From Williamsia sp. 1135 (lineage in GTDB: Bacteria > Actinomycetota > Actinomycetes > Mycobacteriales > Mycobacteriaceae), in assembly GCF_002095395.1 (NCBI RefSeq), contig NZ_MJEI01000106.1:1-64000 (forward strand): a stretch of DNA of 64,000 bases. The letters run 5' to 3'. Position 1 is the stretch's first letter, and each line of letters opens with the position of its first letter. The translations under genes and the position numbers were made by a program. The notes beneath the pieces are model-generated. The model searched no databases, had not been told where the DNA came from, and saw nothing but the letters and a program-made list of their open reading frames with translations. This document shows positions 47,739 through 64,000 of the stretch, one piece after another.

Positions 47739-49088
47739 CTAGTTCCGCGAAGCAGCTGCCCGTCGGTAGCCCCGCAAAGCGGGGTAGGCGAACACGAGAA
47801 TGATGCCCACCGCCCAGATGACGGTCTTGGTCAGGCTCTCGGCCACCGGCCCGCCGGTAGCCAAGGCCCGCATCGTTTCGATGGCGCAGGTCATGGGCTG
47901 ATTGCGAACCAGGGGCTGGATGATCTCTGGATAGGCACTGATCGGTGAGAACCCCGAGTTGAAGAACATGAGCAAGCTCGTGAACAGCGACATGATCGGC
48001 ACGAGAGGAAGATTCGAGCCCGACACCGCGAGAGTCAAGACGATCGTCGAGTACGCAGCGCCGTAGAGCAGCGCGACGGCGAACACCCCTATGGCGGGAA
48101 GGAGCCCCTGATTGAATCTCCAGCCGATCAACATGCCGACGGTCGTCAGCACGAGTGTGCTCACCAGGATGCGAATCAATTCGACGTTGACCCGAGACGA
48201 AATGTCTGCCGCGCGGTGAACCGGCATCACATAGAGTCGCGTGAGCAGTCCGGTACGGCGTTCACTGATGAGGCGGGTTCCGACGGCCAGCGAACCGAAC
48301 ATGGCGCCGACCAGCACCACAAGAGGAACTGTTCCGTACGCACTGTTCTGTCCTGTCGCCTGTCCGACGGCGTCACCGAGCACCACCTTGAACATGAGCA
48401 TGCTCAGCAGCGGGAACAACAGACTCTGGGCAAGCGTCAGTCGATCTCGGACCACGACACGGAATTGTCGACCGGTCAGCAATCCGGTGTGCGCCAGATA
48501 AGCACGGAACCCGAGTTCGCGGGGCGAGGCCGACGCGGAGAAGGTTGTCGCGACGGCGGCACGGTCTCCTGTGAGCTCAACCGGATCGGGTAGAGGCGCT
48601 GCCTGCACGGTTTCGGTATTACGCAGCTGCACTTCTCGAACGTCGATCTTGACGGTCGGCGCCTGCTGGAGCTCGATCGGAAAGTCCCCGCCCGCGCGAA
48701 CGCGGCGGGAGGTGATCTGTGTCAGTCGGCCGGTCCGGGACTGCTCGCCCGAGTCATCCGGGTCGTCCGACTCGGCCTTCGGCGAATCGAGCGCGATCTG
48801 CTCTGTTGCCCAATCGGCGGCCAGCGCGCCGGGTGACAGCATCGCCCAAGGGCCGACTACCGCGCGCATCGACCCGGACTCGGAGTAAGCCGCCGGTCTG
48901 CGTATTGGTCGCGTAGCCAGATCGGATGCATCGTCGACGTCGTCCCGACGGGCACGTCTGGGACCGGGTGAGACCGCCTCGGTGCGCCACCAGTGATCCT
49001 GTCGTGCACCGCCATCTCCCCGATGCCGAGGAGCTCTCGTTTCGTTCGGCGAATCGTCGGAAGCCGTGTTCCTGTTGCTCGAGGTCAT
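47739..49088 (-). CDS. DrrC-type ABC-2 permease with long N-terminal extension
   Basis: A 449-residue protein. The last about 250 residues form a six-helix ABC-2 permease (SLLFPLLSMLMFKVVLG, then GTRLISERRTGLLTRLYVMP, and NSGFSPISAYPEIIQP) like DrrC. The first about 190 residues are charged, Pro/Arg/Asp-rich and probably disordered, which is not usual for the family. It overlaps the previous permease by 4 bp and is the last gene of the three-gene exporter operon. The likely cargo is the product of the neighbouring NRPS, or a lipid, by context. Confidence 0.83.
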   Translation of the reverse strand: MTSSNRNTASDDSPNETRAPRHRGDGGARQDHWWRTEAVSPGPRRARRDDVDDASDLATRPIRRPAAYSESGSMRAVVGPWAMLSPGALAADWATEQIALDSPKAESDDPDDSGEQSRTGRLTQITSRRVRAGGDFPIELQQAPTVKIDVREVQLRNTETVQAAPLPDPVELTGDRAAVATTFSASASPRELGFRAYLAHTGLLTGRQFRVVVRDRLTLAQSLLFPLLSMLMFKVVLGDAVGQATGQNSAYGTVPLVVLVGAMFGSLAVGTRLISERRTGLLTRLYVMPVHRAADISSRVNVELIRILVSTLVLTTVGMLIGWRFNQGLLPAIGVFAVALLYGAAYSTIVLTLAVSGSNLPLVPIMSLFTSLLMFFNSGFSPISAYPEIIQPLVRNQPMTCAIETMRALATGGPVAESLTKTVIWAVGIILVFAYPALRGYRRAAASRN

Positions 49089-49900
49089 CGGCGGCTACTC
49101 CGGATCGTCACAAACAGGCCACCGAGGACCGCGACCAGGGCAACACCTCCGGCCCAACAGAGCGGTGGGATGAGCAGACCCCACGTCACCGTGCCTCCGT
49201 CGAAGCCGCGCATCAGATCTGTGAATTGTGAAATCGGTTGGTTTCGCGCGAATGGCTGAATCCATTCGGGAAACCTCTCCTCGGGTATGAACCCTGTCGA
49301 GAGCATCCCGAGGATCAATTGTGGAAGTGCCAGTGCCTGACTCGTGGCCTCTGGATTTCGCGAAATCGTCCCGATGATGTCAGCACCGAAAGCCAAGATC
49401 ATGCCGACGACGAAAGCGACGGTGAAGAACCCGATCAGGTTCAGGACGCCCGAGTCAGGTCGCCAACCGATGACAAGTCCCGAAATCACGGCCCAAACCA
49501 ACGATATGACGAGCAGCACCATGTTCGCGCCGAGTCGTGCCATCAAGGGCACCATCGCGTTCACAGGCATGCTGCGCAGCCGATTGGTCAATCCCAGGCT
49601 CCCGTCGTTCGCCGCGCGCATCGCGGCGGACGTGGCGACGAATCCAACCGACTGGAGGCAGATGACCGGCATGAGGAATTGCGCGTAGTCCATGCCCGGG
49701 TAGTTGTTCATGATCGCCCGGAGCGGAATGTAGAAACAGATCGTCAGGAACACCGGGGCGGTGATCGACAAGAAGAACTCGCCCTGCCGGCCCATCCCTC
49801 TGAGTGATCGGTTCGTCAGGGCCAGCCATTGCTGTACCGGGTGGACCGAAGGACGATCGGCGTCGGACGCGACGACCCTGGCGGGGTTCGCAGTCGTCAT
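49085..49900 (-). CDS. DrrB-type ABC-2 permease
   Basis: A 271-residue membrane protein with six hydrophobic helices of the ABC-2/daunorubicin exporter type (FFLSITAPVFLTICFYIPL, LTNRLRSMPVNAMVPL, GMLSTGFIPEERFPEW). With its neighbours it forms a DrrA-DrrB-DrrC exporter. It overlaps the ATPase gene upstream and the second permease downstream by 4 bp each, so the complex would be made in fixed ratio. Confidence 0.86.
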   Translation of the reverse strand: MTTANPARVVASDADRPSVHPVQQWLALTNRSLRGMGRQGEFFLSITAPVFLTICFYIPLRAIMNNYPGMDYAQFLMPVICLQSVGFVATSAAMRAANDGSLGLTNRLRSMPVNAMVPLMARLGANMVLLVISLVWAVISGLVIGWRPDSGVLNLIGFFTVAFVVGMILAFGADIIGTISRNPEATSQALALPQLILGMLSTGFIPEERFPEWIQPFARNQPISQFTDLMRGFDGGTVTWGLLIPPLCWAGGVALVAVLGGLFVTIRSSRR

Positions 49901-51039
49901 GAGCCACCAGGAGCAGTGGTGGCGCTGTCGGTCAGTTTGAGGAACACGTCGTCGAGCGAGGGACGTCGTAGACCGACATCAGTGAGTTCGATGCCTGCCG
50001 CGTCTGTCCTCTTGACGATCTCGACCAGGGTCTGTGTGGCGTTGACCGCGGGCAAGGTCAGAGATGTCCGAGACATGTCGATCCGGATCGCGCCCTCTGG
50101 GACGAGGTCGGCAAGCAGTGTCTTGATCTTCGCGAGGTCGTCGGGGTAGCTGGGGATGACTTCGCAGAAGTTGCCGCTGACCTTTTCTTTCAGCTCGTTG
50201 GCGGTTCCCTCGGCGATGACCCGACCTTTGTCGATGACAACGATCCGATCGCTGAGCAGATCTGCTTCTTCCAGGTATTGGGTCGTGAGGAGGGTGGTTA
50301 TGCCCTGATCGCGAAGTGACGTGACGATGTTCCACACGTCTTGTCGGCTGCGCGGATCGAGTCCGGTGGTCGGCTCGTCCAAGAAGACGACCTCTGGGCG
50401 AACGACCAGGCCGCATGCAATGTCGATTCGTCGACGCATGCCACCCGAGAACTTGCCGACCCGTCGGGACGCGGCATCCACCAGGTTGAATGCCTCGAGC
50501 AATTCGTCGGCACGATGCGTGGCGTCGTTCTTTCGCAGGCCCATCAGGCGACCGAAGAGGACGAGATTCTCGCGGCCCGTCAACGACTCGTCCAAGGCGG
50601 CGAACTGACCGGTGAGCATGATCGATTTACGTACTGCTGCACGATCTTTGACGACGTCATAGCCGGCGATCTCGGCGCTGCCGCCGTCCGGGGTGAGCAG
50701 TGTGGCCAGCATGTTGACGGTGGTGGTTTTGCCCGCGCCGTTCGGCCCCAGCAGTCCCAGCACGGTACCGGTGGGTACCTCGAAACTGACTCCGTCGACT
50801 GCCGTGAACTCGCCGAAGCGCTTGACCAGGTTGTCTGCGACAACACTGTTCCTTCGCTCGACCGCGGGCACATCAGCGTCCCCGACCCGGAACTCGGTGA
50901 TGGGATAGGAATGGGCCGCCGTCCGCTGGTCAGAGTGGTCGTGACTGTTGCTCGATCGCGTAACTCGGCCCCGCCTCGCTTGCATGTCCGTCCCGTCATC
51001 GTCATGGTCGCATGGCGGCGCGCGCCCCTGATCGACCAT
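49897..51039 (-). CDS. DrrA-type ABC transporter ATPase
   Basis: An approximately 380-residue ATP-binding subunit of the daunorubicin-resistance exporter family. Walker A GPNGAGKTTTV, signature FSGGMRRRIDIA, Walker B VVFLDEPTTGLD and the family-typical TTQYLEEAD in place of a histidine H-loop are all present. A DrrA-like C-terminal domain follows. The start is uncertain: ATG at 51039 is used here, ATG at 50985 is equally possible, and an open frame reaches 51120. It heads the three-gene operon and diverges from the NRPS genes. Confidence 0.88.
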   Translation of the reverse strand: MVDQGRAPPCDHDDDGTDMQARRGRVTRSSNSHDHSDQRTAAHSYPITEFRVGDADVPAVERRNSVVADNLVKRFGEFTAVDGVSFEVPTGTVLGLLGPNGAGKTTTVNMLATLLTPDGGSAEIAGYDVVKDRAAVRKSIMLTGQFAALDESLTGRENLVLFGRLMGLRKNDATHRADELLEAFNLVDAASRRVGKFSGGMRRRIDIACGLVVRPEVVFLDEPTTGLDPRSRQDVWNIVTSLRDQGITTLLTTQYLEEADLLSDRIVVIDKGRVIAEGTANELKEKVSGNFCEVIPSYPDDLAKIKTLLADLVPEGAIRIDMSRTSLTLPAVNATQTLVEIVKRTDAAGIELTDVGLRRPSLDDVFLKLTDSATTAPGGS

Positions 51040-51243
51040 AACGAACCTAGCGCAGAAATCCGGGCGTAACACTACGGCGTTCCGCGTCGATATCGTCTGT
51101 GTGAATGAAATGTCGGCCAATTGGTATTCAAAGGTCTAGCAATGGCTATAATTCGGTGACCTGGACGGGGCTATTGCAGGTAACCGAACGAATACGTGTT
51201 TCGTAGGTCGCATTCGGCGCACGTGGCGAGATGGGAGGGCGTT

Positions 51244-51606
51244 GTGGTTCTGCAGCTCCGACGTAATGGTAGGGGGCCATCGGCTCCGACTGGTGGCCGT
51301 AACACGCGTGACCGCGGCGGTCGCACACTGACGCAGATGGTGATGACTGCAGCTGAGGCTGCGCGTGATCGGCCGGCGGTCGTCGGTCCGGACTACGCAG
51401 TGAGCTTCGGCGAGCTCAAAGCGCGGGCGCAAGGCGCCGCCGTAGCGATGTCGAGTGAATCGGGTGTGGATGACTCCGCTCTCACGGTCGCCCTCATGAC
51501 CGCTGTTCCCGGCCTAGCGGTTGCGGGCCCCAAGGGTCTGGCGGATACGCTGAGCGGGATACGGATTCAAGCAATGATGGTTCTCGCCGAGTTCGAACTG
51601 GTCTGA
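51244..51606 (+). CDS. Small adenylation-like protein X1 (truncated A-domain homologue)
   Basis: A 120-residue protein of unknown function. After a basic N-terminus of about 30 residues it reads like the first strand region of an NRPS adenylation domain ([18 protein letters not shown]) and then departs from it ([20 protein letters not shown], shown by its first part). All core A-domain motifs are missing. The same two-part layout occurs in X2 at 52216-52644 and inside the NRPS near 62344-62690. GTG at 51244 follows GGGAGGG; an upstream GTG at 51196 is possible. It lies 89 bp before mbtH. Confidence 0.6.
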
Positions 51607-51695
51607 ATCGGGCCCCGTGCTTCGTGCCGCTGCTGCGGTGCGCCGGGTTGCCTCGACCAGGGGGTTCGCGGTGGGACATTTATGGAGGGACCACC

Positions 51696-51917
51696 ATGAG
51701 CAACCCATTTGACGACGAAGACGGCCGGTTCTTTGTGCTGGTCAACGATGAGAATCAGCACTCGCTGTGGCCGACGTTCGCCGACATCCCGTCAGGTTGG
51801 AACAAGGTCTTCGGTGAAGCTTCCCGAAGTGAATGCCTCGATTACGTCAACGAACACTGGACCGACCTGCGTCCGCAGAGCTTGATCGACGCAATGGAAG
51901 CCGACTCGGCTCAGTAG
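51696..51917 (+). CDS. MbtH-like protein
   Basis: A 73-residue MbtH-like protein, a small partner that binds NRPS adenylation domains and often is needed for their folding or activity. The conserved [15 protein letters not shown] and the paired tryptophans of [10 protein letters not shown] are present. ATG follows GGAGGGA by 5 bp. It precedes the NRPS on the same strand, so it presumably serves it. Confidence 0.95.
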
Positions 51918-52215
51918 GCGGCAAACTCGCGGCGCGACTTCCTTCGCAATACTCGCTCGATCAGCTATCCTGATCGTGACAGTCGCGAGTGTCCGTGATG
52001 GTCACGTGGGTGTCTTTGTCGAATCGGGTGCGAAGACTCCATCGATCTCGAGGTCTCCGCAGGTGAGGGACCAGTCACCGCTAGCTGTGGTACACATCAC
52101 ACCCCGATCGTGTAACAGCTTGGAAAACCGCTCTTCCCTTATCCTTCGCGTACTGTGACTATTACTACGCGAAGCTAGATACAAGTCGTGGTAGACGCAC
52201 AGGGTTGGTGAGCAT
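51918..52215 (+). other. Intergenic region between mbtH and X2
   Basis: About 298 bp. The right half is relatively AT-rich and may hold a promoter for X2. A possible 60-residue frame at 51976-52158 has no ribosome site or recognisable domain. Nothing else supported. Confidence 0.35.
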
Positions 52216-52644
52216 ATGGCTATTTCAACGATTCGTCCTCAGTCGAGGGTCGATGAGTCTGTTGCGCAGGTTGTCGGACTGCCTGAGGCGGTCTTGCAGA
52301 TCACTCGTGTGACACCTGACCGCGTGGTTGTCAGGTACCGCTCGCGGGTCCTCAACTACCGCGACCTCACCGCCGCCATCAATTTGATGATGCCTGTGAC
52401 GCGTAGTCAGCAGATGGACGATCGGGCCGCTGTGGTCGCAGCCATTTTCGCCGGCATCCCCGCTCTGGGTTCCGAGCCAAACGCTGCGGCTGTAACCGGC
52501 GTCGTGGACGGCGCGTTGGCGCAGATTGCCACGGACCTCGCCGATCTGAATTCGGCTACAGCGCCGCCGCGCGAGCGCGTCACGGCAAACCGCACGAGCG
52601 AAATGGATCTGCGCGTCATCGCCAGCCGCCTCACCGGCAAGTAG
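52216..52644 (+). CDS. Small adenylation-like protein X2 (truncated A-domain homologue)
   Basis: A 142-residue protein of unknown function. Residues about 30-55 (TPDRVVVRYRSRVLNYRDL) resemble the start of an adenylation domain; then MDDRAAVVAAIFAGIPALGS matches the second part of X1 and of the NRPS insert. No AMP-binding motif is present. The C-terminus (about 100-142) is unique and polar. ATG follows GGTGAG closely. It lies between mbtH and the NRPS, on the same strand. Confidence 0.6.
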   Translation: MAISTIRPQSRVDESVAQVVGLPEAVLQITRVTPDRVVVRYRSRVLNYRDLTAAINLMMPVTRSQQMDDRAAVVAAIFAGIPALGSEPNAAAVTGVVDGALAQIATDLADLNSATAPPRERVTANRTSEMDLRVIASRLTGK

Positions 52645-53171
52645 AGCGGTTCGGAGGTAGTCGGCCCCGGCAAGTGCGGGTGCATCACGTCGGTGACTGA
52701 TCCCGACCGGTGTGGCACCGCTAGGCGAGATCGCGGCGCTGGAAATGCCAGGTCGACATCCGCTTGACGTTCTGGGTTTCCCTAGCCATCTGCACGTGCA
52801 TTTGCTGTTCTCTGAATGCCGACGTAACGTTGGATCTTCGTTCAGTAGACACAATTTGTGATCTTTAAACCAATGAATCCGGCCTTTGATGCTGTCCGGT
52901 TCGATTTCGGCTGAGGTCTAGAATTAGGCTTCAGATATGCAGCGGCCCGTTATCTATCCATGTAACGCGTGTGACAGCCTTGTCGATATGTCACAGAACG
53001 ACATGCCTTATCGCGTGTCTGAACTCTGATGTTCGAACGCGTGGTTACTGTTGGAGGACGCCCGGGTAGGGCGTTGACGACGCTGAGGACCGGGTGTCAC
53101 GAAGATCGGTTGCGTAGCCACGGTCGTTCGAAGCCGAGGCGAGCATTCGTTCGAGATTGGAGCGAGAGATT
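52645..53171 (+). other. Intergenic region upstream of the NRPS
   Basis: About 527 bp with markedly lower GC around 52800-53040 than its surroundings, suggesting promoter and regulatory DNA for the NRPS. A 26-codon frame on the minus strand (52721-52801) is not convincing. An in-frame stop at 53115-53117 limits how far upstream the NRPS can begin. Confidence 0.45.
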
Positions 53172-56100
53172 TTGAGTGCTGGCCGTTCAGACGTACCAGC
53201 AGGTGTAACCGACGATGCGTTCGAGTTGTCGGCAGCGCAACGCGGCATATGGTTCGCGCAGCAAAGCTTGGGCCAAGTGGCCATCAACATCGCTCAGTAC
53301 GTAGAACTCAACGGTCAGATCGATCTGGAGACGCTGACCGAGGCATCGCGGTTGGCAGGTCAGGAACTCGGCTCCGGATATTTGCGTCTCGTCGAGACGG
53401 ACGCCCTTCCGTTTCAGTACGTAGACCCCGGGATCGACGACACAATCGAACTGCTGGACGTGTCGGGCGAGACCGATCCAGTTGCCGCGGCAAATGCCTG
53501 GATGCGTGAGGAATACCGCAGGCCTGTTGATCTCTTGAACGATCGGTTGTCCGTGAGCGCCTTGCTCCGGATCGGTGAAGACCATTATTTCTGGTATCTG
53601 CGGACCCACCACATAGCTTTCGATGGCTTCGGAGCGATGGCGCTGGTCACGAGGATCGCGGAAGTCTACTCGGCCATGATCGCCGGGGAGTCGATCCCGC
53701 CTGCTCGAGGCGCCTTGTTGCCCGAAGTGGTCTCAGAGGAGCGAAAGTATCGTTCGTCGGACCGGTTCGGAAAGGACCGCGAGTACTGGGCCGAGCGCAC
53801 GGCGGATCTGCCGGCGCCGCTGTCCCTCGCTCATCATCGAGCGGCGCCCGGTGAGTTTTCGAGGGTCGCCTCGGCCACGCTGGCCGACGAGACGGCCGCG
53901 CTTCTCGACGAAGCTTCGAAAGCCGCTTCCGGTAGCTCCGCGCCGGCAGTGATAGCCGCATTCGCGGCGTACCTGGCGCGAATCAGCGATGTCGAAGAAG
54001 TGGTGCTGAGCCTCCCGGTCTCCGCTCGCAACACGTCCAAATTGCGGCGAGCGGGTGGCATGGTGTCCAACGTCGTGCCCTTGCGTTTGACGGTGTCGTC
54101 TGAGACGACCGTCGAGGACCTGGTGCGGGATGTTCAGACCGAGCTGACCGGCGCGCTACGCAGGCAGCTGTACCGGCACGAGGACATGCGGCGCGACGTC
54201 GGTCAAGGGACCGCGCAGAGGGGTTTGTTCGGGCCCTCTGTGAACCTCATGATGTTTCAACCGCTTGTGGACCTCGGCGACGTCGTCGGCCATCTGCACG
54301 TTCTCACGACCGGGCCGGTCGAGGACCTCTCGATCAATCTTTATCCTGGTGTGCGCGGTTCCAACCTGAGAATCGACTTCGAGGCCAACCCGAGCACGTA
54401 CACCGATGACGAACTCCTGAGTCATCACAACCGGTTCACCGATTACCTGGGCCAGATATTGCGTGCAGAACCGGGGACCCGCGTGGGTGCCCTCAGTCTC
54501 GGTACCCCGGCCGAGATCGGCGCGACCATGGTCCACTGGAATGCCACCGACAGCCTGGTGAACGACGAGTCCGTCCTCGACATGTGGTCGGCGCGGGTTC
54601 GAGAAACCCCCCAGGCGGTCGCTTTCGTCGACGGACAGACGACCTTGACGTTCGCGGAGTTCGATGACCTCACGGATCGGTGCGCTGGACTCCTTCAGGC
54701 AAATGGTGTACTCCCCGGCGACCGGGTCGCCGTGGCGATGTCGAGGTCGCTGGACATGTGCACGTGGATCTTCGGGATCCTCAAGTGCGGCAGTGCGTAC
54801 GTGCCCCTCGACCCCGAGCATCCTACTTCGCGGGTCATCGATGTCCTCGAGACCGCGGCGGCCTCGACCGTCATCGCACCACTGCGGGACTGGGAAAGGC
54901 TCGGCGAGGGCCACAACGACGTCCGATACATCGATCCCGAGACCGCAGACCTGACCAGTGGCCCCGGATCTTCCAAGCCGGCGAATGTGACGATTCGTGC
55001 GAGCTCTCTCGCGTATGTTTTGTTCACCTCGGGGTCGACGGGGACTCCGAAGGGTGTGGCGATCAGTCATCGGTCCCTGGTGAACCAGATCTCTTGGCTG
55101 ATCTCCGAGTTCGGTTTGACGACAACCGATTCGGTTCTCCTGAAGACTCCTGTCACATTCGATGCCTCGGTCTGGGAACTGTTTGCACCCGGCGCGGCGG
55201 GTGCGCGCCTCGTTGTTTCTGGTCCGGACGCGCACAGGGACCCTGAGCTGTTGGCCCAACTCATCGATCGCCACTCCGTGACCATTGCCCAGTTCGTGCC
55301 GTCGGTGCTGAGTCTGGTCACCGAGGTGGCCTCCCGAGACGCGATGAAGACGCTGCGGACAGTGTTTGTCGGTGGAGAGGCGCTGTCCGGTGCGCTGGTT
55401 CAGCAATTCCGGATGATTTCTGAGGCCGACGTCGTAAACCTGTACGGGCCCACCGAAGCAACGATCAATGCGACGTCTCACGTGGTAGAGAGGGGTCGCG
55501 ATCAGGTCGCGGAATTGGTGCCCATCGGGCAGCCGGTGTGGAACACGCGCGCATGGGTCCTCGACAGGCAATTGCGGCCCGCGGTCGTAGGTGCGACAGG
55601 CGAGCTGTATCTGTCGGGTAGCCAACTTGCGCAAGGATATGCGCGAGCCGCGGAACTCACCGCCTCACGCTACGTGGCGTGTCCGTTCGGTGGCGAGGGT
55701 GACCGAATGTACCGCACCGGGGATCTGGTGCGGTGGAATGCGACCGGACGCCTGGAATATGTTGGACGCGCGGACTTTCAGGTCAAGATCCGTGGTCTGA
55801 GAATCGAACTCGGGGACATCGAAGCAGCCATTCTCGCCGATGACTGCGTTCGTCAGGCCGTCGTCGTCGTTCACGACGGCATCCATGGCCAGCGACTGGT
55901 GGGATACGTGGTCGCCGCCGACACCGGCGAAGACACACATTTCGACACCGCGAAACTGATGGATACCGTGAGGGAACGGGTCCCCGAGTACATGATCCCG
56001 GATGCAATCGTGCCGCTCGCGCACATGCCGCTGGGACCGAACGGCAAAGTCGATCGCGGAGCTCTTCCCGAACCTGACTTCTCCGCGCAGCGGGTGGCGT

Positions 56101-59100
56101 TCCGTGCGCCCATCAGTGGCAAGGAGCGCGCGCTCGCGACCTTGGTCTCGGAATTGTTGGGTGTACCCGAGGTCGGCATGGACAATTCGTTCTTCGGGCT
56201 CGGCGGGGACAGCATCATGTCGATCCAGCTCGTGTCCCGTGCGCGCGCACTGGGTCTCCACTTCACGTCGCGAGAGGTGTTCGAGCACAGGACGATCGGC
56301 GAGCTCGCTGACGCTGCCCGCGAAGAAGAATCGGCCGTGGTCTCCGAGCTTCCGGGGGGCGGTGTGGGCGAGGTCGCGCTCACCCCCATCGTCCGATGGC
56401 TGAGCGAACACCGGGAGGCCGTGTCGGCGTTCTCGCAGTCGGTGGTCGTCCCGGCACCGGAACCATTCGATGCCGGGGTTTTGGAGCGGACCTTCGACGC
56501 GGTGGTGCGGCACCACGACATCCTGAGATCCCGTCTCATCTCCGGCGCCGATGGCGCCGTGCGCCATGTGGTGGATCCGGTCGACGAGCACGTGGCGATC
56601 GCGATCGAGGAGCTGTCGGTATCGGTCGAGCCTGGTTCCAGTGCTTTCGACGACGCCATGTCGGTCGAGGCGCAGCGGATCACGGAATCCCTCGACCCGG
56701 CGACCGGTCGGATCCTGGCGGTGGCGATTGTCGGTGGTCCGTGGCAGGACGAGTTCGGCCGTCGTTTGCTGATCGTCCTCCATCATCTGGTCGTCGACGG
56801 TGTTTCGTGGCGAATTCTGTTGCCGGATCTGGCGATCGCCTGGGGGCAGGTTGCTGCGGGTGAGGCAGTTGAGCTGGCGCCGGTCGGCACCTCGATGCGG
56901 CGATGGGCGCACGGACTGACCGAATTGGCAAAGGACCCTGCGCTGGCCGGGGAACTGGACCACTGGCGATCGGTGGCGGATCTCGTCGACAACCCGACGC
57001 TGCGGGTCGACCCCGAGCGCGACCGGGTCGAGTCACTCCGGCATCGCGAGGTGACCTTGTCTTCCAAGCTCACCGAGACCCTTCTGACGCGGGTGCCAGA
57101 AGCGTTCCACGGTGGTGTCAACGACGGTTTGATGGCGGCGCTGGCCCTCGCGACCACGCATTGGCTGCGAGGCCGCGGCGAGGCCGCGGAGTCCGTGGTG
57201 GTGGCGCTGGAAGGCCATGGCCGCGAAGAGGAACTACTTCCGGGCGCAGATCTCTCCCGCACGGTCGGCTGGTTCACCGCGCTCTATCCGGTCGCACTCA
57301 ATACCGCCGGGATCGACGTCGACGAGGCGCTCGCAGGCGGTCGAGCGGCCGGCGACCTGGTCAAAGCGGTCAAGGAACAACTCGCTGCGATTCCTCGTCG
57401 TGGGGTCGGCTACGGGTTGTTGCGGTATCTCGGTGACGGAGCCGAGGACCTCTCAGGTCGGCCTGCACCCGCGATCACATTCAACTATCTGGGGCGTTTG
57501 TCGGCCACAGATTTGTCCGGCCCCTGGATTCCAGACGGAGAGGGTGCGCTCCGCGGTTCTCGAGGCCGGTCGGTCCCGGTACGGACAGCGCTCGACATCA
57601 ATGCGATGGTCACCGAATCGGCGACCGGGCCGCAACTGTCGACCACGATCGATTACCCGGCTGCACTGATCGACGACGAATCGGTTGACGCGCTGGTCGA
57701 ACTGTGGCAGCGCGCACTGGAATCGATTGCGCTGCATTCGGCATCGCCTGACGCCGGCGGTCTGTCGCCCAGCGACCTCGATCTCGTCGATCTGTCGCAA
57801 GAACAGATAGGCGAGTTGGAGGACCGTTTCGGCGAGGTCGTCGACGTCTGGCCTCTGACACCGCTACAGAACGGTCTGCTCTTTCATGCCGAGCTCGCCG
57901 CCGGCGGCCTCGATGTGTATGCCGCTCAGATGATTCTCGATCTGCAGGGTGTTGATCCTGACCGGATGCGCCGCAGTGCAGATGAACTCGTCCGTCGGCA
58001 CCCAAACCTTCGCAGCGCCTTCGTCGTCAATTCGGATGGCACCGCGTTGGCAGTCATCGATGGCCGCGCCTCGGCGCCCTGGATCGCCCACGACGTATCC
58101 GATCTCGATCAGCACGCGCAAGGACTGCGGATCGACGAGCTAACCCATGGCGAGCGGATCACACCGTTCGCCATGGATCGCCCGCCGTTGCTGCGTTTCA
58201 CGATGATCAAACGTGGTCCCGGTGCGTACCGCTTCGTGGTCACCAATCACCACATCCTCCTCGACGGCTGGTCGATGCCGATCTTTGTCGGCGATCTGCT
58301 CGCGATCTATCGATCAGGTGGCGGTGGGGAGGTGCTCTCTGCTCCCAGGTCCTATCGCAATTACCTGTCCTGGTTGCAATCGCAGCCCGGCGGGCGCTCG
58401 CTCGAACTGTGGTCGAAGGCCCTCGAAGGTTTCACCGAACCCACTGTGCTCTTCCCCGTCACCGGGACGAAACTCACGGGCGAAGTGCCACAAGAGGTTT
58501 CGGTTGCGGTCGACGATGATGTCTTCGAACGGCTGACCCGGTACGTCCGCGAAACCGGGATCACCCTCAACACCGTTCTACAGTCCGCCTGGGGAATCGT
58601 GCTCTCGCGCCTGACAGGTCGCGACGATGTTGTGTTCGGAACCGCGGTGTCCGGTCGACCGCCGCAGGTCGCCGGGATCGAGTCGATGCTGGGGCTGTTC
58701 ATCAACACACTTCCGGTTCGTGTCCGGATCGACCGCAGCGGCGATGTCGCCGGTTTGATGAAACGGCTTGCGCAAGAACAGGCCGAGTTGCTCGATCATC
58801 ACGCTGTCGGGCTGGCCGAGATCTTTGCCGCGGCGGACGTCGAATCACTCTTCGACACCATGATGGTCTACGAGTCCTACCCTCTGGACCGGGACGCGCT
58901 CAGCGCTGCTGCGGACATCGATGGGATGCGGGTCGACGGTGCCGATGTCTTGGACGCCACCCACTACCCGCTGACACTCATCGCCATGACCGATCCGCAC
59001 CTGCGGCTGTCGGCGAAGTATTTGGCGGGCGCCGTTGACCGCGAGCAGGCCGAGTCGATCTTGAACATGATGGTGCGGGTACTGCGGCAGCTCGCGGCAG

Positions 59101-62100
59101 GCCCGTTGGTCCGCGTCGGTGACATAGAGATCCTCACCGACGACGAGCGACTCGAACTGCTCGGACAGAGTGGGGCCGTTGCCACATCGCCGACCACACT
59201 GCCAGAGCTGCTCGCAGATGCGGCGGCGATGGGCGCCGGGCGCAACGCAGTCGAGTCGCCGTCAGGATCGATCACCTACCAGGAGCTCGACGCGCGATCG
59301 AACGCCCTTGCCCGGCTGCTCATCTCGAGAGGTATTGGTACTGAGAAGGTTGTCGCCCTCGGGATGGGGCGGTCCATTGATTTCATGGTCGGCCTATGGG
59401 CGGTTGCGAAGACCGGTGCCGGTTACCTTCCCGTGGACATGCGCTACCCGCCCGAACGTATCGAGCACATGCTCGTCGATTCGGCGGCGGTGTACGGCCT
59501 GTCGACTTCGTCGTGGCGTGAGGCACGTCCAGGAAGCATCGAGTGGCTTGAACTCGACGTCGCCGACACGGCCGACATCTTGGCCGGATACTCCACTGCG
59601 AGCGTCGCCGAAAGCGAACGTCGTTCGCCGATTCGGCTCGCCAACACCGCCTACATGATCTACACCTCCGGCACGACGGGTGTGCCGAAGGGTGTCGCGG
59701 TGACGCATGGCGGCCTGTCGAACCTCATGCACGACCAGTCCGACCGTTTCGTCCTGACGTCACGGTCGAGGACGCTGCACTTCGCCTCTCCGAGCTTCGA
59801 CGCCTCTGTGTTGGAAGTGTTGCTGGCGCTCGCGCATGGGTCGACGATGGTCATCGCACCGACGGAACTGTACGGCGGTGAGGAACTCCACGATTTCCTC
59901 GCCGAGTACGCGGTCACTCATGGATTCATCACGCCTGCGGCACTGGCCTCTGTGGATCCGGCGAATCTGGACGACTTCGAAACCGTCGTGGTCGGCGGGG
60001 AGGCGTGCCCGCCGGAACTCGTCGAGCGCTGGGCTCCGGGTCGTCGGATGTTCAACGGTTATGGGCCGACGGAGACAACTTGTTTCGCTGACATCGCTGG
60101 ACCGATGTCCGTCGGTGCAGACATCACGATCGGCTCGCCGGTTCGTGGCCTGACGTCGCTGATCCTGGACGGACGCCTCCAGCCGGTACCGGTCGGTGTG
60201 GACGGTGAGCTGTACCTGAGCGGCCCCGCGATGGCTAGGGGGTACCACGAGCGGGCGTCGCTGACTGCAGATCGGTTCGTCTCGAACCCGCACGGAGCCT
60301 CCGGTGAGCGCATGTATCGAACGGGTGACGTCGCGCGGTGGGTCCGCGGGGCCCACGGGCTTGAAGTCAAGTACCTGGGCCGCAGTGACTTCCAGGTAAA
60401 GGTCCGTGGCTTCCGTATCGAGCTGGGGGAGATCGACGCGACGCTGGCCGCGCACCCCGACATCGACTTCGCTTCGACGGCGGGCATGACGCTGCCTTCC
60501 GGTGTGACGGCGCTGGTGTCCCACGTCCTGGCGACAGCTCCACTGGACGCCAGGACGGTTCGGGACTTCGTCGGCAGTCGACTGCCTACGCACATGGTGC
60601 CCAGCGCGGTCGTCTTTCTCGATGAGATACCCCTGACCCGTTCGGGCAAGCTGGATCGGGCGGCTCTGCCGGCGCCGGACCTCACCGCGTTGCCTGTTGG
60701 TGGTGCGGAGCCATCCACGGCGACCGAAGTGGCCGTCGCCGAGGTTTTGGCGGAGATTCTCGGGCTACCTGCGGTTGGCGCGGACGTCTCGTTCTTCGAC
60801 GTGGGCGGTAACTCCCTCCTCGCGACGAAAGCGGCAGCCCGGATCAGCGCGCGAATAGGCCGCCGCGTGGCGGTCCGCGAGATCTTCGACAATCCAACCG
60901 TCGAAACCCTGTCTGCTGCAGTTGATTCAGCAGTCGCATCTGAGTCTGTGCCTGACCTAGTTGCAGGTCTTGCGGGGGATCGGCCTCCGCTGTCCCTGGC
61001 CCAGCAGACCATGTGGTTGCTCAACCGACTCGACCCGGACTCCGCCGCGTACAACATTCCACTGGTGGTGCGACTCCGGGGGCAGATCGATAGGACGGCA
61101 CTTCGCGCGGCGTTGCTCGACGTGGTCGAGCGGCATGAACCGCTCCGTACGATCTTCCCCGACACCGGGGGTGACCCCGTGCAGCATGTACTGCCCATGT
61201 CGGAGGTCGTCCTCGAACCGTCGATCGAGTCGGCGACCGAGACCGATCTCGACTCGAGAATCTCCGGTGTTGCACGACGTGGATTCGATCTGCGCTCGGA
61301 TCTCCCGTTGCGCGCGAACATCTTCGAGATCGCCGACGATGACCACGTAGTCGTGGTGGTTGTCCACCACATCAGTGCAGACGGCGCATCATTGAGCCCG
61401 TTGGCGCGGGACTTCGTGTTCGCGTACTCATCTCGGGCAGCCGGCCGGCCTCCTGAGTTCGCGCCCCTGGCTGTGAGTTATCCGGACTTCGCAGTTTGGC
61501 AGCGCCGGTATCTCGGCGACGCCGACGACGCGGATTCGGAAGCCGGACGGCAAATCGGGTACTGGAGGAACGAGCTCGGCGGCGCACCTGAACTGCTGGA
61601 ACTCCCGTCGGATCGACCACGTCCACCGCAGCGATCCACCCAGGGTGCGACAGTGCCGCTCGAGATCGACGAAGAGCTCTATGGCGATTTGGTCGTTCTC
61701 GCCCGCGAGCACGGCGTAACCGTCTTCATGCTGCTCCATGCGGCGTTGGCGGTCCTGCTGTCACGCGTCAGCGGAAATTCCGATATCGCCGTCGGCACAC
61801 CGGTTGTCGGCAGGCGGGACGAAAAGCTCGCCGATCTCGTCGGGGTCTTTGTCAACACGGTGGTGCTGCGAACCGAGATCGATCCGGCATCCGCGGTCGC
61901 GGAACTCCTCGGCGTCATACGCAGGGTTGACTCGTCCGCGTTCGACAACGCGGACGTGCCGTTCGAGCAGCTCGTGCGCGCCCTGGGTCGTCGACGGTCC
62001 AACGCGTATTCACCGATTTTCCAGGTGTTGCTCTCGATGCAGAACAACGAGCGTGTCGATATCGACGTAGCCGGAGTGCGGGCGCAGATCAACAACCTGA

Positions 62101-64000
62101 GCTCTACGCGGGCAGCGCAGTTCGATCTCTCGTTCAACCTGTTCGAGTTGTACAACCCGACCACGTTCGCCCCGGAGCGCTTGGGCGGTGAATTGAGTTA
62201 TGCAACAGATCTTTTCGATGAGCATTCCATGACCGAGCTTGCTGACAGATTTGTGGCAACGGTCCGTTCCTTGGTCTCCGCGGCCGCCGGAGTCGTCGGT
62301 GACATCGATATCCGGACCGCTTCCGAGAAAGGGCTCGGAGTTCCGTCGGTCGTCGAGCTGCTGGCCACCGACAACATCCTCGAGTTGATCTCCGCGGCAG
62401 CGTCCGTCGATCCGGATGCCATCGCCGTGCGCCATGGCGATGTCTCGGTTTCCTACCGTGACCTGCACGGGCACCTGACGTTGGTCGGAGCACCTCTTGC
62501 CGCGCGTGGGCTCAGTGATGATGCGGTGCTGTCGGTCTCGCTGGCGGGGCTCATCCCGGCGACGGCCACGCTGCCGCCGAACGGGCCGGGAGGAATCGGC
62601 TCGGTCATCGATGAATTGGTGGCGACGACGACGGGGATCGTCGCCAATGGCGGCGGTATCGAACAGTCGCTGCGCGCGGCCGTGTCACGTTCTGGCGCGG
62701 ACACGCTGGCCTCGCTCTTCACAGAACAGGCAGCGAGAACTCCGGACGCAGTCGCAATTCGGTTCGGCGACGAGAACCTCGACTATGACGAGTTCGCTCA
62801 GCGGGCCGGACGCCTCGCGCGGCATCTGATCGAGGAGGGTGTCGGACCCGAATCGCTTGTCGGACTTGCGGTGCCGCGATCGCTCGAATTGTTGATCGGT
62901 ATGTACGCGATCACCCTCGCAGGCGGCGCGTACGTTCCCATCGATCTCGAACACCCGGCCGAACGGATCGCCCACACGCTGCGCACCGCCGATCCGGTGT
63001 GTGTTCTCGTACTGGCCGATGCGGAGCCGCTGCCAGGCTTCTCAGGTGCGACCATCGAACTCGACAGGGTAGACCTATCTCGGTACCCGGGCGGCGCGGT
63101 CTCCGACACCGAGCGCTCGGCACCGCTTCGTCCGCACAACACCGCGTACGTGATTTTCACCTCGGGCTCCACCGGCAAGCCGAAAGGCGTTGCCATCAGC
63201 CATGGTTCGATCGTGAACCGTTTGCTGTGGATGCAGGGGGAGTACGGCCTGACCGCGGACGATGTCGTGTTGCAGAAGACGCCGGCGACATTCGACGTAT
63301 CTGTCTGGGAGTTCTACTGGCCGCTGCAGGTGGGCGCGCAACTCACCATCGCGGCGCCAGGTGGTCACCGGGATCCTGGCTACCTGCAGTCGCTGATCGA
63401 GCGGCACGGGGTGACCACATTGCACTTCGTCCCGTCGATGCTACTGATCTTCGTTGCGGCAGCAGACCCTTCGGCGCTGATGTCACTGCGCCTGGTCTTC
63501 GCCAGTGGTGAAGCTCTTCCGGGTGCTACGGCTGCGGCCTTCCGCCGGATATCGGCTGCGCCACTGCACAATCTGTACGGCCCCACCGAAGCAGCCGTCG
63601 ACGTCTCCTACCACGAGTGGACCGAAGCGGACGGCGCGTCGGTCCCGCTGGGGGTAGCGGTCAGCAACACCGAGTTGATCGTGCTCGACGATCGCTTGCG
63701 CCCGGTGCCCGCCGGAGTGGCCGGGGAGTTGTATCTCTCCGGCGTCCAGTTGGCGCGCGGGTATGTCAACCGCCCCGATCTGAGCAGCGACCGGTTCGTC
63801 GCGCTTCCGAACGGACTGTCGACCACTTCGGGCGCCGGCACCCGGATGTACCGCACGGGCGATCTCGTCCGTCGCAGGGCGAGCGGAGAGCTCGAATATC
63901 TGGGGCGCACAGACTTTCAGGTCAAGCTCCACGGACTCCGCATCGAACTGGGTGAGATCGAGTCGGTGTTGCTCGGCGCCGACGGCGTGACCGGCGCGGT
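53172..64000 (+). CDS. Giant non-ribosomal peptide synthetase (partial, continues beyond window)
   Basis: One uninterrupted frame of about 3,610 codons to the window edge. TTG at 53172 is the likely start (GGAGCGAGAG upstream; no in-frame ATG or GTG after the stop at 53115). Domains by residue: C1 13-450 (HHIAFDG), A1 463-957, T1 980-1047 (Ser1014 in GGDSIMS), E 1065-1515 (HHLVVDG), C2 1552-1985 (HHILLDG), A2 2005-2495, T2 2515-2585 (Ser2548 in GGNSLL), C3 2597-3040 (HHISADG), an adenylation-like insert of about 115 residues (3058-3173), then A3 3177 onwards. Pocket residues I read: A1 DAWQFGLIN (Gln-like), A2 DALFVGGCF (aliphatic-like), A3 DVWHFSLVD (Ser-like). The E domain would give a D-residue first. 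MbtH and an exporter are adjacent. Confidence 0.95.
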   Translation, partial: MSAGRSDVPAGVTDDAFELSAAQRGIWFAQQSLGQVAINIAQYVELNGQIDLETLTEASRLAGQELGSGYLRLVETDALPFQYVDPGIDDTIELLDVSGETDPVAAANAWMREEYRRPVDLLNDRLSVSALLRIGEDHYFWYLRTHHIAFDGFGAMALVTRIAEVYSAMIAGESIPPARGALLPEVVSEERKYRSSDRFGKDREYWAERTADLPAPLSLAHHRAAPGEFSRVASATLADETAALLDEASKAASGSSAPAVIAAFAAYLARISDVEEVVLSLPVSARNTSKLRRAGGMVSNVVPLRLTVSSETTVEDLVRDVQTELTGALRRQLYRHEDMRRDVGQGTAQRGLFGPSVNLMMFQPLVDLGDVVGHLHVLTTGPVEDLSINLYPGVRGSNLRIDFEANPSTYTDDELLSHHNRFTDYLGQILRAEPGTRVGALSLGTPAEIGATMVHWNATDSLVNDESVLDMWSARVRETPQAVAFVDGQTTLTFAEFDDLTDRCAGLLQANGVLPGDRVAVAMSRSLDMCTWIFGILKCGSAYVPLDPEHPTSRVIDVLETAAASTVIAPLRDWERLGEGHNDVRYIDPETADLTSGPGSSKPANVTIRASSLAYVLFTSGSTGTPKGVAISHRSLVNQISWLISEFGLTTTDSVLLKTPVTFDASVWELFAPGAAGARLVVSGPDAHRDPELLAQLIDRHSVTIAQFVPSVLSLVTEVASRDAMKTLRTVFVGGEALSGALVQQFRMISEADVVNLYGPTEATINATSHVVERGRDQVAELVPIGQPVWNTRAWVLDRQLRPAVVGATGELYLSGSQLAQGYARAAELTASRYVACPFGGEGDRMYRTGDLVRWNATGRLEYVGRADFQVKIRGLRIELGDIEAAILADDCVRQAVVVVHDGIHGQRLVGYVVAADTGEDTHFDTAKLMDTVRERVPEYMIPDAIVPLAHMPLGPNGKVDRGALPEPDFSAQRVAFRAPISGKERALATLVSELLGVPEVGMDNSFFGLGGDSIMSIQLVSRARALGLHFTSREVFEHRTIGELADAAREEESAVVSELPGGGVGEVALTPIVRWLSEHREAVSAFSQSVVVPAPEPFDAGVLERTFDAVVRHHDILRSRLISGADGAVRHVVDPVDEHVAIAIEELSVSVEPGSSAFDDAMSVEAQRITESLDPATGRILAVAIVGGPWQDEFGRRLLIVLHHLVVDGVSWRILLPDLAIAWGQVAAGEAVELAPVGTSMRRWAHGLTELAKDPALAGELDHWRSVADLVDNPTLRVDPERDRVESLRHREVTLSSKLTETLLTRVPEAFHGGVNDGLMAALALATTHWLRGRGEAAESVVVALEGHGREEELLPGADLSRTVGWFTALYPVALNTAGIDVDEALAGGRAAGDLVKAVKEQLAAIPRRGVGYGLLRYLGDGAEDLSGRPAPAITFNYLGRLSATDLSGPWIPDGEGALRGSRGRSVPVRTALDINAMVTESATGPQLSTTIDYPAALIDDESVDALVELWQRALESIALHSASPDAGGLSPSDLDLVDLSQEQIGELEDRFGEVVDVWPLTPLQNGLLFHAELAAGGLDVYAAQMILDLQGVDPDRMRRSADELVRRHPNLRSAFVVNSDGTALAVIDGRASAPWIAHDVSDLDQHAQGLRIDELTHGERITPFAMDRPPLLRFTMIKRGPGAYRFVVTNHHILLDGWSMPIFVGDLLAIYRSGGGGEVLSAPRSYRNYLSWLQSQPGGRSLELWSKALEGFTEPTVLFPVTGTKLTGEVPQEVSVAVDDDVFERLTRYVRETGITLNTVLQSAWGIVLSRLTGRDDVVFGTAVSGRPPQVAGIESMLGLFINTLPVRVRIDRSGDVAGLMKRLAQEQAELLDHHAVGLAEIFAAADVESLFDTMMVYESYPLDRDALSAAADIDGMRVDGADVLDATHYPLTLIAMTDPHLRLSAKYLAGAVDREQAESILNMMVRVLRQLAAGPLVRVGDIEILTDDERLELLGQSGAVATSPTTLPELLADAAAMGAGRNAVESPSGSITYQELDARSNALARLLISRGIGTEKVVALGMGRSIDFMVGLWAVAKTGAGYLPVDMRYPPERIEHMLVDSAAVYGLSTSSWREARPGSIEWLELDVADTADILAGYSTASVAESERRSPIRLANTAYMIYTSGTTGVPKGVAVTHGGLSNLMHDQSDRFVLTSRSRTLHFASPSFDASVLEVLLALAHGSTMVIAPTELYGGEELHDFLAEYAVTHGFITPAALASVDPANLDDFETVVVGGEACPPELVERWAPGRRMFNGYGPTETTCFADIAGPMSVGADITIGSPVRGLTSLILDGRLQPVPVGVDGELYLSGPAMARGYHERASLTADRFVSNPHGASGERMYRTGDVARWVRGAHGLEVKYLGRSDFQVKVRGFRIELGEIDATLAAHPDIDFASTAGMTLPSGVTALVSHVLATAPLDARTVRDFVGSRLPTHMVPSAVVFLDEIPLTRSGKLDRAALPAPDLTALPVGGAEPSTATEVAVAEVLAEILGLPAVGADVSFFDVGGNSLLATKAAARISARIGRRVAVREIFDNPTVETLSAAVDSAVASESVPDLVAGLAGDRPPLSLAQQTMWLLNRLDPDSAAYNIPLVVRLRGQIDRTALRAALLDVVERHEPLRTIFPDTGGDPVQHVLPMSEVVLEPSIESATETDLDSRISGVARRGFDLRSDLPLRANIFEIADDDHVVVVVVHHISADGASLSPLARDFVFAYSSRAAGRPPEFAPLAVSYPDFAVWQRRYLGDADDADSEAGRQIGYWRNELGGAPELLELPSDRPRPPQRSTQGATVPLEIDEELYGDLVVLAREHGVTVFMLLHAALAVLLSRVSGNSDIAVGTPVVGRRDEKLADLVGVFVNTVVLRTEIDPASAVAELLGVIRRVDSSAFDNADVPFEQLVRALGRRRSNAYSPIFQVLLSMQNNERVDIDVAGVRAQINNLSSTRAAQFDLSFNLFELYNPTTFAPERLGGELSYATDLFDEHSMTELADRFVATVRSLVSAAAGVVGDIDIRTASEKGLGVPSVVELLATDNILELISAAASVDPDAIAVRHGDVSVSYRDLHGHLTLVGAPLAARGLSDDAVLSVSLAGLIPATATLPPNGPGGIGSVIDELVATTTGIVANGGGIEQSLRAAVSRSGADTLASLFTEQAARTPDAVAIRFGDENLDYDEFAQRAGRLARHLIEEGVGPESLVGLAVPRSLELLIGMYAITLAGGAYVPIDLEHPAERIAHTLRTADPVCVLVLADAEPLPGFSGATIELDRVDLSRYPGGAVSDTERSAPLRPHNTAYVIFTSGSTGKPKGVAISHGSIVNRLLWMQGEYGLTADDVVLQKTPATFDVSVWEFYWPLQVGAQLTIAAPGGHRDPGYLQSLIERHGVTTLHFVPSMLLIFVAAADPSALMSLRLVFASGEALPGATAAAFRRISAAPLHNLYGPTEAAVDVSYHEWTEADGASVPLGVAVSNTELIVLDDRLRPVPAGVAGELYLSGVQLARGYVNRPDLSSDRFVALPNGLSTTSGAGTRMYRTGDLVRRRASGELEYLGRTDFQVKLHGLRIELGEIESVLLGADGVTGA
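62344..62690 (+). other. Truncated adenylation-like insert between C3 and A3 of the NRPS
   Basis: Within the NRPS frame, about 115 residues start like an adenylation domain (DPDAIAVRHGDVSVSYRDL) and then continue as LSDDAVLSVSLAGLIPATAT without any AMP-binding motif. A complete A3 begins right after (TPDAVAIRFGDENLDYDEF). The module therefore has a vestigial A-domain front end. The proteins X1 and X2 upstream share the same two-part layout. Confidence 0.65.

Follow-up and report, generated by a model that had tools for sequence, protein, structure and literature searches.

Subunit recognition in nonribosomal peptide synthetases (NRPSs) sets which peptides are made and constrains engineering. 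The docking domains of NRPSs and polyketide synthases treated in the available text of PMC9113145 and PMC13324335 (COM, PAX, bHD/SLiM and the four-helix bundle) are paired tails at facing protein ends; in that of PMC9113145, a 2021 review, COM, which acts at junctions between epimerization (E) and condensation (C) domains, and PAX are the classes confined to NRPSs, and bHD is shared with hybrid systems. The excerpted text of PMC8362031 places docking domains typically between modules, with a length of about 30 amino acids (aa), and also describes 'type S' NRPSs, which engineers split with synthetic zippers in the linker between the C and adenylation (A) domains. Here we describe a domain family, termed X, represented in a 64,000-nucleotide stretch of Williamsia sp. 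1135 (contig NZ_MJEI01000106.1, positions 1 to 64,000; this whole stretch is the window) by two small free proteins, X1 and X2, encoded on either side of mbtH, and by an insert, I1, in a C-A linker of the NRPS that follows.

In other genera X forms paired tails at facing protein ends, as the described docking domains do. The COM, PAX and bHD/SLiM types covered by the excerpts are intermodular and consist of a short helix or of a beta-hairpin or short motif, whereas X is a domain of about 100 aa with a helix-strand-strand-helix-helix-helix order that lies inside a module at the C/A boundary, is homologous at both ends and is derived from an enzyme domain. With the type S NRPSs, as far as the excerpt of PMC8362031 describes them, X would share the split site and the use of a heterodimeric pair that restores the module in trans; the zippers are man-made coiled coils, and X would be their natural counterpart. 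On comparative evidence we consider it probable, at roughly 60%, that X is a docking domain acting at an intramodular C/A break.

X at the C/A junctions of split synthetases

NRPSs of other genera are cut exactly at C/A, such that the upstream protein ends in C-X (the X domain here termed X_C) and the downstream protein begins with X-A (X_N). Fifty junctions with X at both facing ends, which are the termini of two sequentially acting proteins, were found in 49 genomes and comprise 30 that passed the filter for both X_C and X_N, those of G017 and G028 (G and g numbers denote genomes and genera), eight more, and ten that consist of X-stop-X stretches only. X_C stops no more than 20 aa from the end of the upstream protein. 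The 68 embedded copies that were mapped all sit either within the C-A linker or at a protein terminus created by a cut there. In the 47 inserts and X_C domains, without exception, X starts 319-364 aa downstream of the HHxxxDG motif of the C domain; in the 47 inserts and X_N domains it always ends 151-183 aa upstream of an A3-type motif. Docking is favored among the functions offered because split NRPSs carry X at both facing ends.

At a profile threshold of E ≤ 1e-11, X was matched in 240 of 401 genomes and 21 of 31 genera of the bacterial family, where the weakest matches may be A domains. In a sample of the class at 1e-15, matches occurred in 7 of 394 genomes (4 of 138 genera), every one of them in the same bacterial family. 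Among named genomes, X of the C-terminal type was detected at 52 loci, distributed over Rhodococcus, Prescottella, Rhodococcoides, Antrihabitans and Nocardia.

X is also retained where the partner genes are unlinked. Seven genomes encode an X_C half and an X_N half at separate places with the C-X and X-A ends intact, either on one contig (1.36 Mb apart in G376 and 1.82 Mb apart in G412) or on separate contigs (G146, G274, G318, G334 and G400). All 34 genomes examined from genera g6, g22 and g23, sampled among genomes with a match, had exactly two X matches; in g22, where 17 of 32 genomes have matches, 16 of these 17 carry two full-length X domains. Directly after the X_C half, G376 (L181:7985-11098) and G146 (L183:8124-10685) encode a protein that by eye has two A-like domains devoid of the usual TSGSTG motif, has no X_N and resembles a degenerate downstream NRPS start.

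Three genomes have a single X_C and two X_N domains. On contig 5 of G093 (L267-L271), one NRPS1 of 3210 aa that ends in C-X is followed by two tandem NRPS2 genes, encoding 8812 and 8820 aa with the same domain order, both running from X-A to a thioesterase-like motif. This is possibly a branched assembly line with one socket and two plugs, since a shared docking site would allow such a layout. G034 and G072 likewise have one X_C and two X_N each.

At a C/A split, the X_C tail of the C-ending protein would bind the X_N head of the A-beginning protein, and this contact would rebuild a working C-A-T module (T, thiolation domain) out of two chains. In a tree of 121 X domains, the X_N domains of the common split type form a clade (support 0.99), as do those of I2, a second insert of the Williamsia NRPS (1.00); X1 clusters with the C-terminal X domains of G019, G069 and G087 (0.95) and X2 with a third free protein, X3 (0.99). 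X_C and X_N from the same junction are 28-44% identical, and because they are separate types we infer a degree of specificity. The X_C and X_N distance matrices are correlated (r 0.917, against at most 0.466 in 2000 shuffles), an agreement that could come from shared ancestry alone because relatedness was not removed. Opposite net charges were not seen on the two partners, the means being -5.6 for X_C and -11.7 for X_N.

Several observations weigh against docking. The junction loci were selected through X matches, and the count therefore does not show that every C/A split has X. Orphan X_N domains without an adjoining X_C occur in G093 (second copy), G034, G072 and G359, a g22 genome with a lone X_N; in G019 and G069 the X_N match is very weak (24-26 bits); and X_C is weakly supported as a group in the tree (0.29). 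I1 and I2, lying within one chain, dock nothing obvious. Eight of eight one-chain genomes of other genera carry a pair of inserts and lack free X at the thresholds listed, and G003, a member of the window's genus, has X1 and X2 and no X insert among matches at E ≤ 1e-10; free and inserted X are therefore not mutually required, which weakens the candidate idea that free X pairs with inserts. Finally, an AlphaFold2 model of an X_C-X_N read-through chain, computed with an alignment of 21 paired rows from in-frame X_C-stop-X_N cases only, folds both domains well and gives no confident interface (predicted TM-score (pTM) 0.39). Among the proposals of the preliminary description, the docking module is the one favored by the arrangement of split NRPSs.

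The lack of a confident X:X contact in the pair model would suit a spacer or cap acting in cis, in which X imitates the front of the A domain, packs on whichever C or A domain adjoins it and stabilizes or gates the C-A platform, whether split or intact, with no binding between X domains. Such a role would fit the single inserts and the fact that chain-end X domains always lie on C or A. We judge it unlikely, for it leaves unexplained the presence of X on both halves of a split module, its retention in unlinked halves, and the free X genes. Under docking the single inserts need another role, perhaps contact of I1 with I2.

One family with an adenylation-domain front

X1 (120 aa, 51244..51606, plus strand) has a GTG start with GGGAGGG directly 5' of it, and X2 (142 aa, 52216..52644, plus strand) an ATG start and a core at residues 21-110; both are intact open frames flanking mbtH. 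I1 is an in-frame insert in the linker between the third C and A domains of the NRPS (62343..62699, plus strand; NRPS aa 3063-3181). The same cluster holds two further members outside the window: I2, in the same NRPS before A5 (contig 48, 69135-69446), and X3, a free gene 2.5 kb beyond the NRPS (contig 48, 89466-89843). Single-sequence searches within the genome (X2 to X3 at E 0.0015 and to I1 at 0.007; I1 to X2 at 0.006 and to X1 at 0.12) were too weak to serve as proof of kinship among X1, X2 and I1, and an independent profile was used instead. This hidden Markov model (HMM) comprised 60 terminal X domains from other genera and was run on 925 open reading frames (ORFs) from 100 kb of the window's genome; as none of its sequences came from the window's genus, the test is not circular. 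All five members were matched across nearly all of its 110 columns, with independent E-values of 6.5e-19 (I2), 6.6e-19 (I1), 2e-13 (X3), 1.1e-12 (X1) and 1e-8 (X2). From the two NRPSs, ordinary A domains gave partial matches (best 2.8e-6, columns 16-71), the top non-NRPS ORF scored E 1.4, and the maximum among 17,880 shuffled ORFs was 8.2 bits. X1, X2, X3, I1 and I2 are thus five members of one family of about 100 residues.

The preliminary description had proposed, from two free proteins and one insert, a small adenylation-like family with a common layout. The kinship of the three segments is borne out by the independent profile, which recovers each nearly full-length, and the two free proteins and the insert were confirmed within a set that proves larger by I2 and X3. 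The layout also holds, in that all three share an A-domain-like start (SFGEL, NYRDL, SYRDL), an acidic D-D/x-A stretch and then a proline, the sole invariant column in the alignment of 121 members; the frame that begins at 62344, the first position given there for the insert, contains stops, and the insert is in frame at 62343-62699. The term adenylation-like suits the first part and is too strong as a family label, given that no AMP-binding motif is present and that the back half has no A-domain counterpart. The preliminary description knew of no described family that fits, and neither Pfam nor the NCBIfam families listed (25 of 37) contain a dedicated model, the matches being to AMP-binding/ANL models plus three stray Pfam hits. 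No account of the X domain was found in the open-access literature searched, which is no proof that X is undescribed.

By origin the front of X, about 65 residues, is the start of an A domain, and what follows is new and helical. Searched against PDB sequences, the family profile aligns, among the best 60 of 106 matches, with nothing but the fronts of A domains and of related ligases, ending near column 69 of 112; the top match is linear gramicidin synthetase LgrA (E 7e-18, profile positions 10-65). Pfam AMP-binding is matched at E ≤ 0.01 by 23 of 121 members, X2 not being among them at that threshold, and NCBIfam matches among the listed families are to ANL enzymes only. An AlphaFold2 model of X2 computed with the 121 family rows has the order helix-strand-strand-helix-helix-helix, with per-residue confidence (pLDDT) of 95-98 over residues 21-110 and pTM 0.70; in Foldseek it resembles A-domain fronts over 43-46 residues (root-mean-square deviation 1.3-1.5, NpsA), with no structural match reaching E ≤ 0.001. 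Compared with the AMP-binding family PF00501, X has the same helix-strand-strand-helix in its first ~45-70 residues and differs in lacking the AMP-binding motifs, in being helical where the third strand would lie, and in its new C-terminal half. Neither these motifs nor the full catalytic core is kept, and the ORFs of X1-X3 stop after about 100 family residues. No A-domain counterpart exists for the back half (profile columns ~70-112), although the whole family conserves it; X is therefore a retained A-domain piece in front and a new piece behind. The ancestral step would have joined the opening ~65 residues of an NRPS A domain to a new helical half, giving a putative interaction domain of about 100 residues.

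In the window's genus (the window genome and eight others) the X1-mbtH-X2 arrangement is present in nine of nine genomes, X3 in eight of nine, and I1 and I2 together in eight of nine. Nei-Gojobori ratios of nonsynonymous to synonymous substitution (dN/dS) are 0.06-0.13 for X1, 0.03-0.11 for X2, 0.10-0.30 for X3 and 0-0.06 for mbtH, most dS values exceeding 1 and one X2 comparison being saturated; unsaturated comparisons gave 0.06-0.09 for X1 (three) and 0.03 for X2 (one). Comparisons of X1 with G004 were excluded as misassigned, an X2 having been placed in the X1 slot. X1-mbtH-X2 is kept under purifying selection. The preliminary description had held that free, intact genes argue against simple decay and had called for a survey of related genomes; X1 and X2 turned out to be neither absent nor randomly broken across the genus, and the low ratios point the same way. 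That X represents decay products of an ancestral event, as the absence of any catalytic motif might suggest, is accordingly highly improbable in the face of intact genes, purifying selection and a high-confidence fold.

I1 is only 27-33% identical to four sister copies that are 79-99% identical to one another, whereas I2 shares 82-90% identity with its own sisters, and module 3 of the window genome (62343-64000) looks exchanged. This, with the A-domain origin of the front and its position where A domains are exchanged, invites the reading of X as a recombination scar, a leftover A-domain front inherited passively at an exchange site in the C-A linker. A passive remnant would not account for the conserved back half, which is kept in free genes, at chain ends and in unlinked halves alike, for dN/dS far under 1, or for the recurrence of X_N and X_C across many genera, and we regard this reading as quite unlikely; a scar may be the origin of X rather than its present role.

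Free X domains, mbtH and the surrounding locus

The gene between X1 and X2, mbtH (51696..51917, plus strand), encodes an MbtH-like protein of 73 aa (Pfam MbtH, E 1.6e-29). X1 and X2 are, like MbtH-like proteins, small proteins encoded beside NRPS genes, and differ in being unrelated to them by Pfam scan, in which X1 had no family and X2 one unrelated, sub-threshold match. In 14 of 15 X1/X2 loci the two genes flank mbtH, and in four of four loci of genus g9 a free X adjoins it, an association that could indicate that X1, X2 and X3 serve MbtH and A domains as accessory factors (a folding aid or regulator), distinct from terminal X in role. We regard this as possible and on the doubtful side: in genus g27 none of four free X loci has mbtH within the 12-13 kb examined, and mbtH adjoins NRPS genes anyway. 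Free X domains as decoys that recruit MbtH, another early suggestion, found no support, as X_C, X_N and the inserts occur without need of mbtH and X retains the front end of an A domain only. In the window's genus the NRPS is one chain that retains X as I1, in the linker of module 3, and as I2, in that of module 5. Under the docking reading, free X1, X2 and X3 would most likely bind other X domains or one another in trans, beside MbtH; this binding in trans is a guess and the weakest step of the reading.

In g27 a free X gene adjoins a gene for a protein of ~512 aa that, by its N-terminus, reads like a type-B carboxylesterase (L174:6206-8365, L175:6350-8497), and lies far from the NRPS (1.8 Mb in G097, 2.1 Mb in G159).

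The NRPS occupies 53157..64000 (plus strand) of the window and its gene ends beyond it, at contig 48:87005; the total of 11,282 aa and all aa numbering are counted from TTG 53157, which is only the earliest start codon available. Judged by motifs, its nine modules are C-A-T-E, C-A-T, C-I1-A-T, C-A-T, C-I2-A-T, C-A-T, C-A-T, C-A-T-E and C-A-T-E, where the T motif of module 5 was missed by the search pattern used. The second part of C3, from the HHxxxDG motif to the insert, occupies 61365..62342 (plus strand) in the motif map and has a sub-threshold Pfam Condensation tail (E 0.0014). A3 follows I1 at 62700..64000 (plus strand), truncated by the window edge, with its TSGSTGKPK motif at NRPS aa 3335 in the same map. 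No thioesterase is visible in the NRPS by motif map. The NRPS ends in an E-type domain, and the next gene, on the opposite strand (contig 48:87110-88036), reads by eye like a secreted lipase, which might be the product-release enzyme. Upstream of X1 and divergent from it (47739-51120, minus strand) are, by eye, genes for two ABC permease-like proteins and one ABC ATPase-like protein, likely an exporter.

Implications for NRPS subunit recognition

A broader reading, which we hold tentatively and at less than even odds, makes X a natural plug-and-socket system for the NRPSs of mycolic-acid actinobacteria, formed out of the front end of the enzyme itself: a self-recognizing family, grown from duplicated A-domain N-termini, that permits a cut within a module at C/A and lets one upstream half supply different downstream ones (in G093, and possibly in G034 and G072), and whose free members regulate, bridge or occupy these sites beside MbtH. 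If docking by X is correct, X would offer a natural pair, with many variants, for the very C-A cut used by engineers. It would also explain the small conserved genes adjacent to mbtH that lack a family name, and branched assembly lines would become predictable from sequence.
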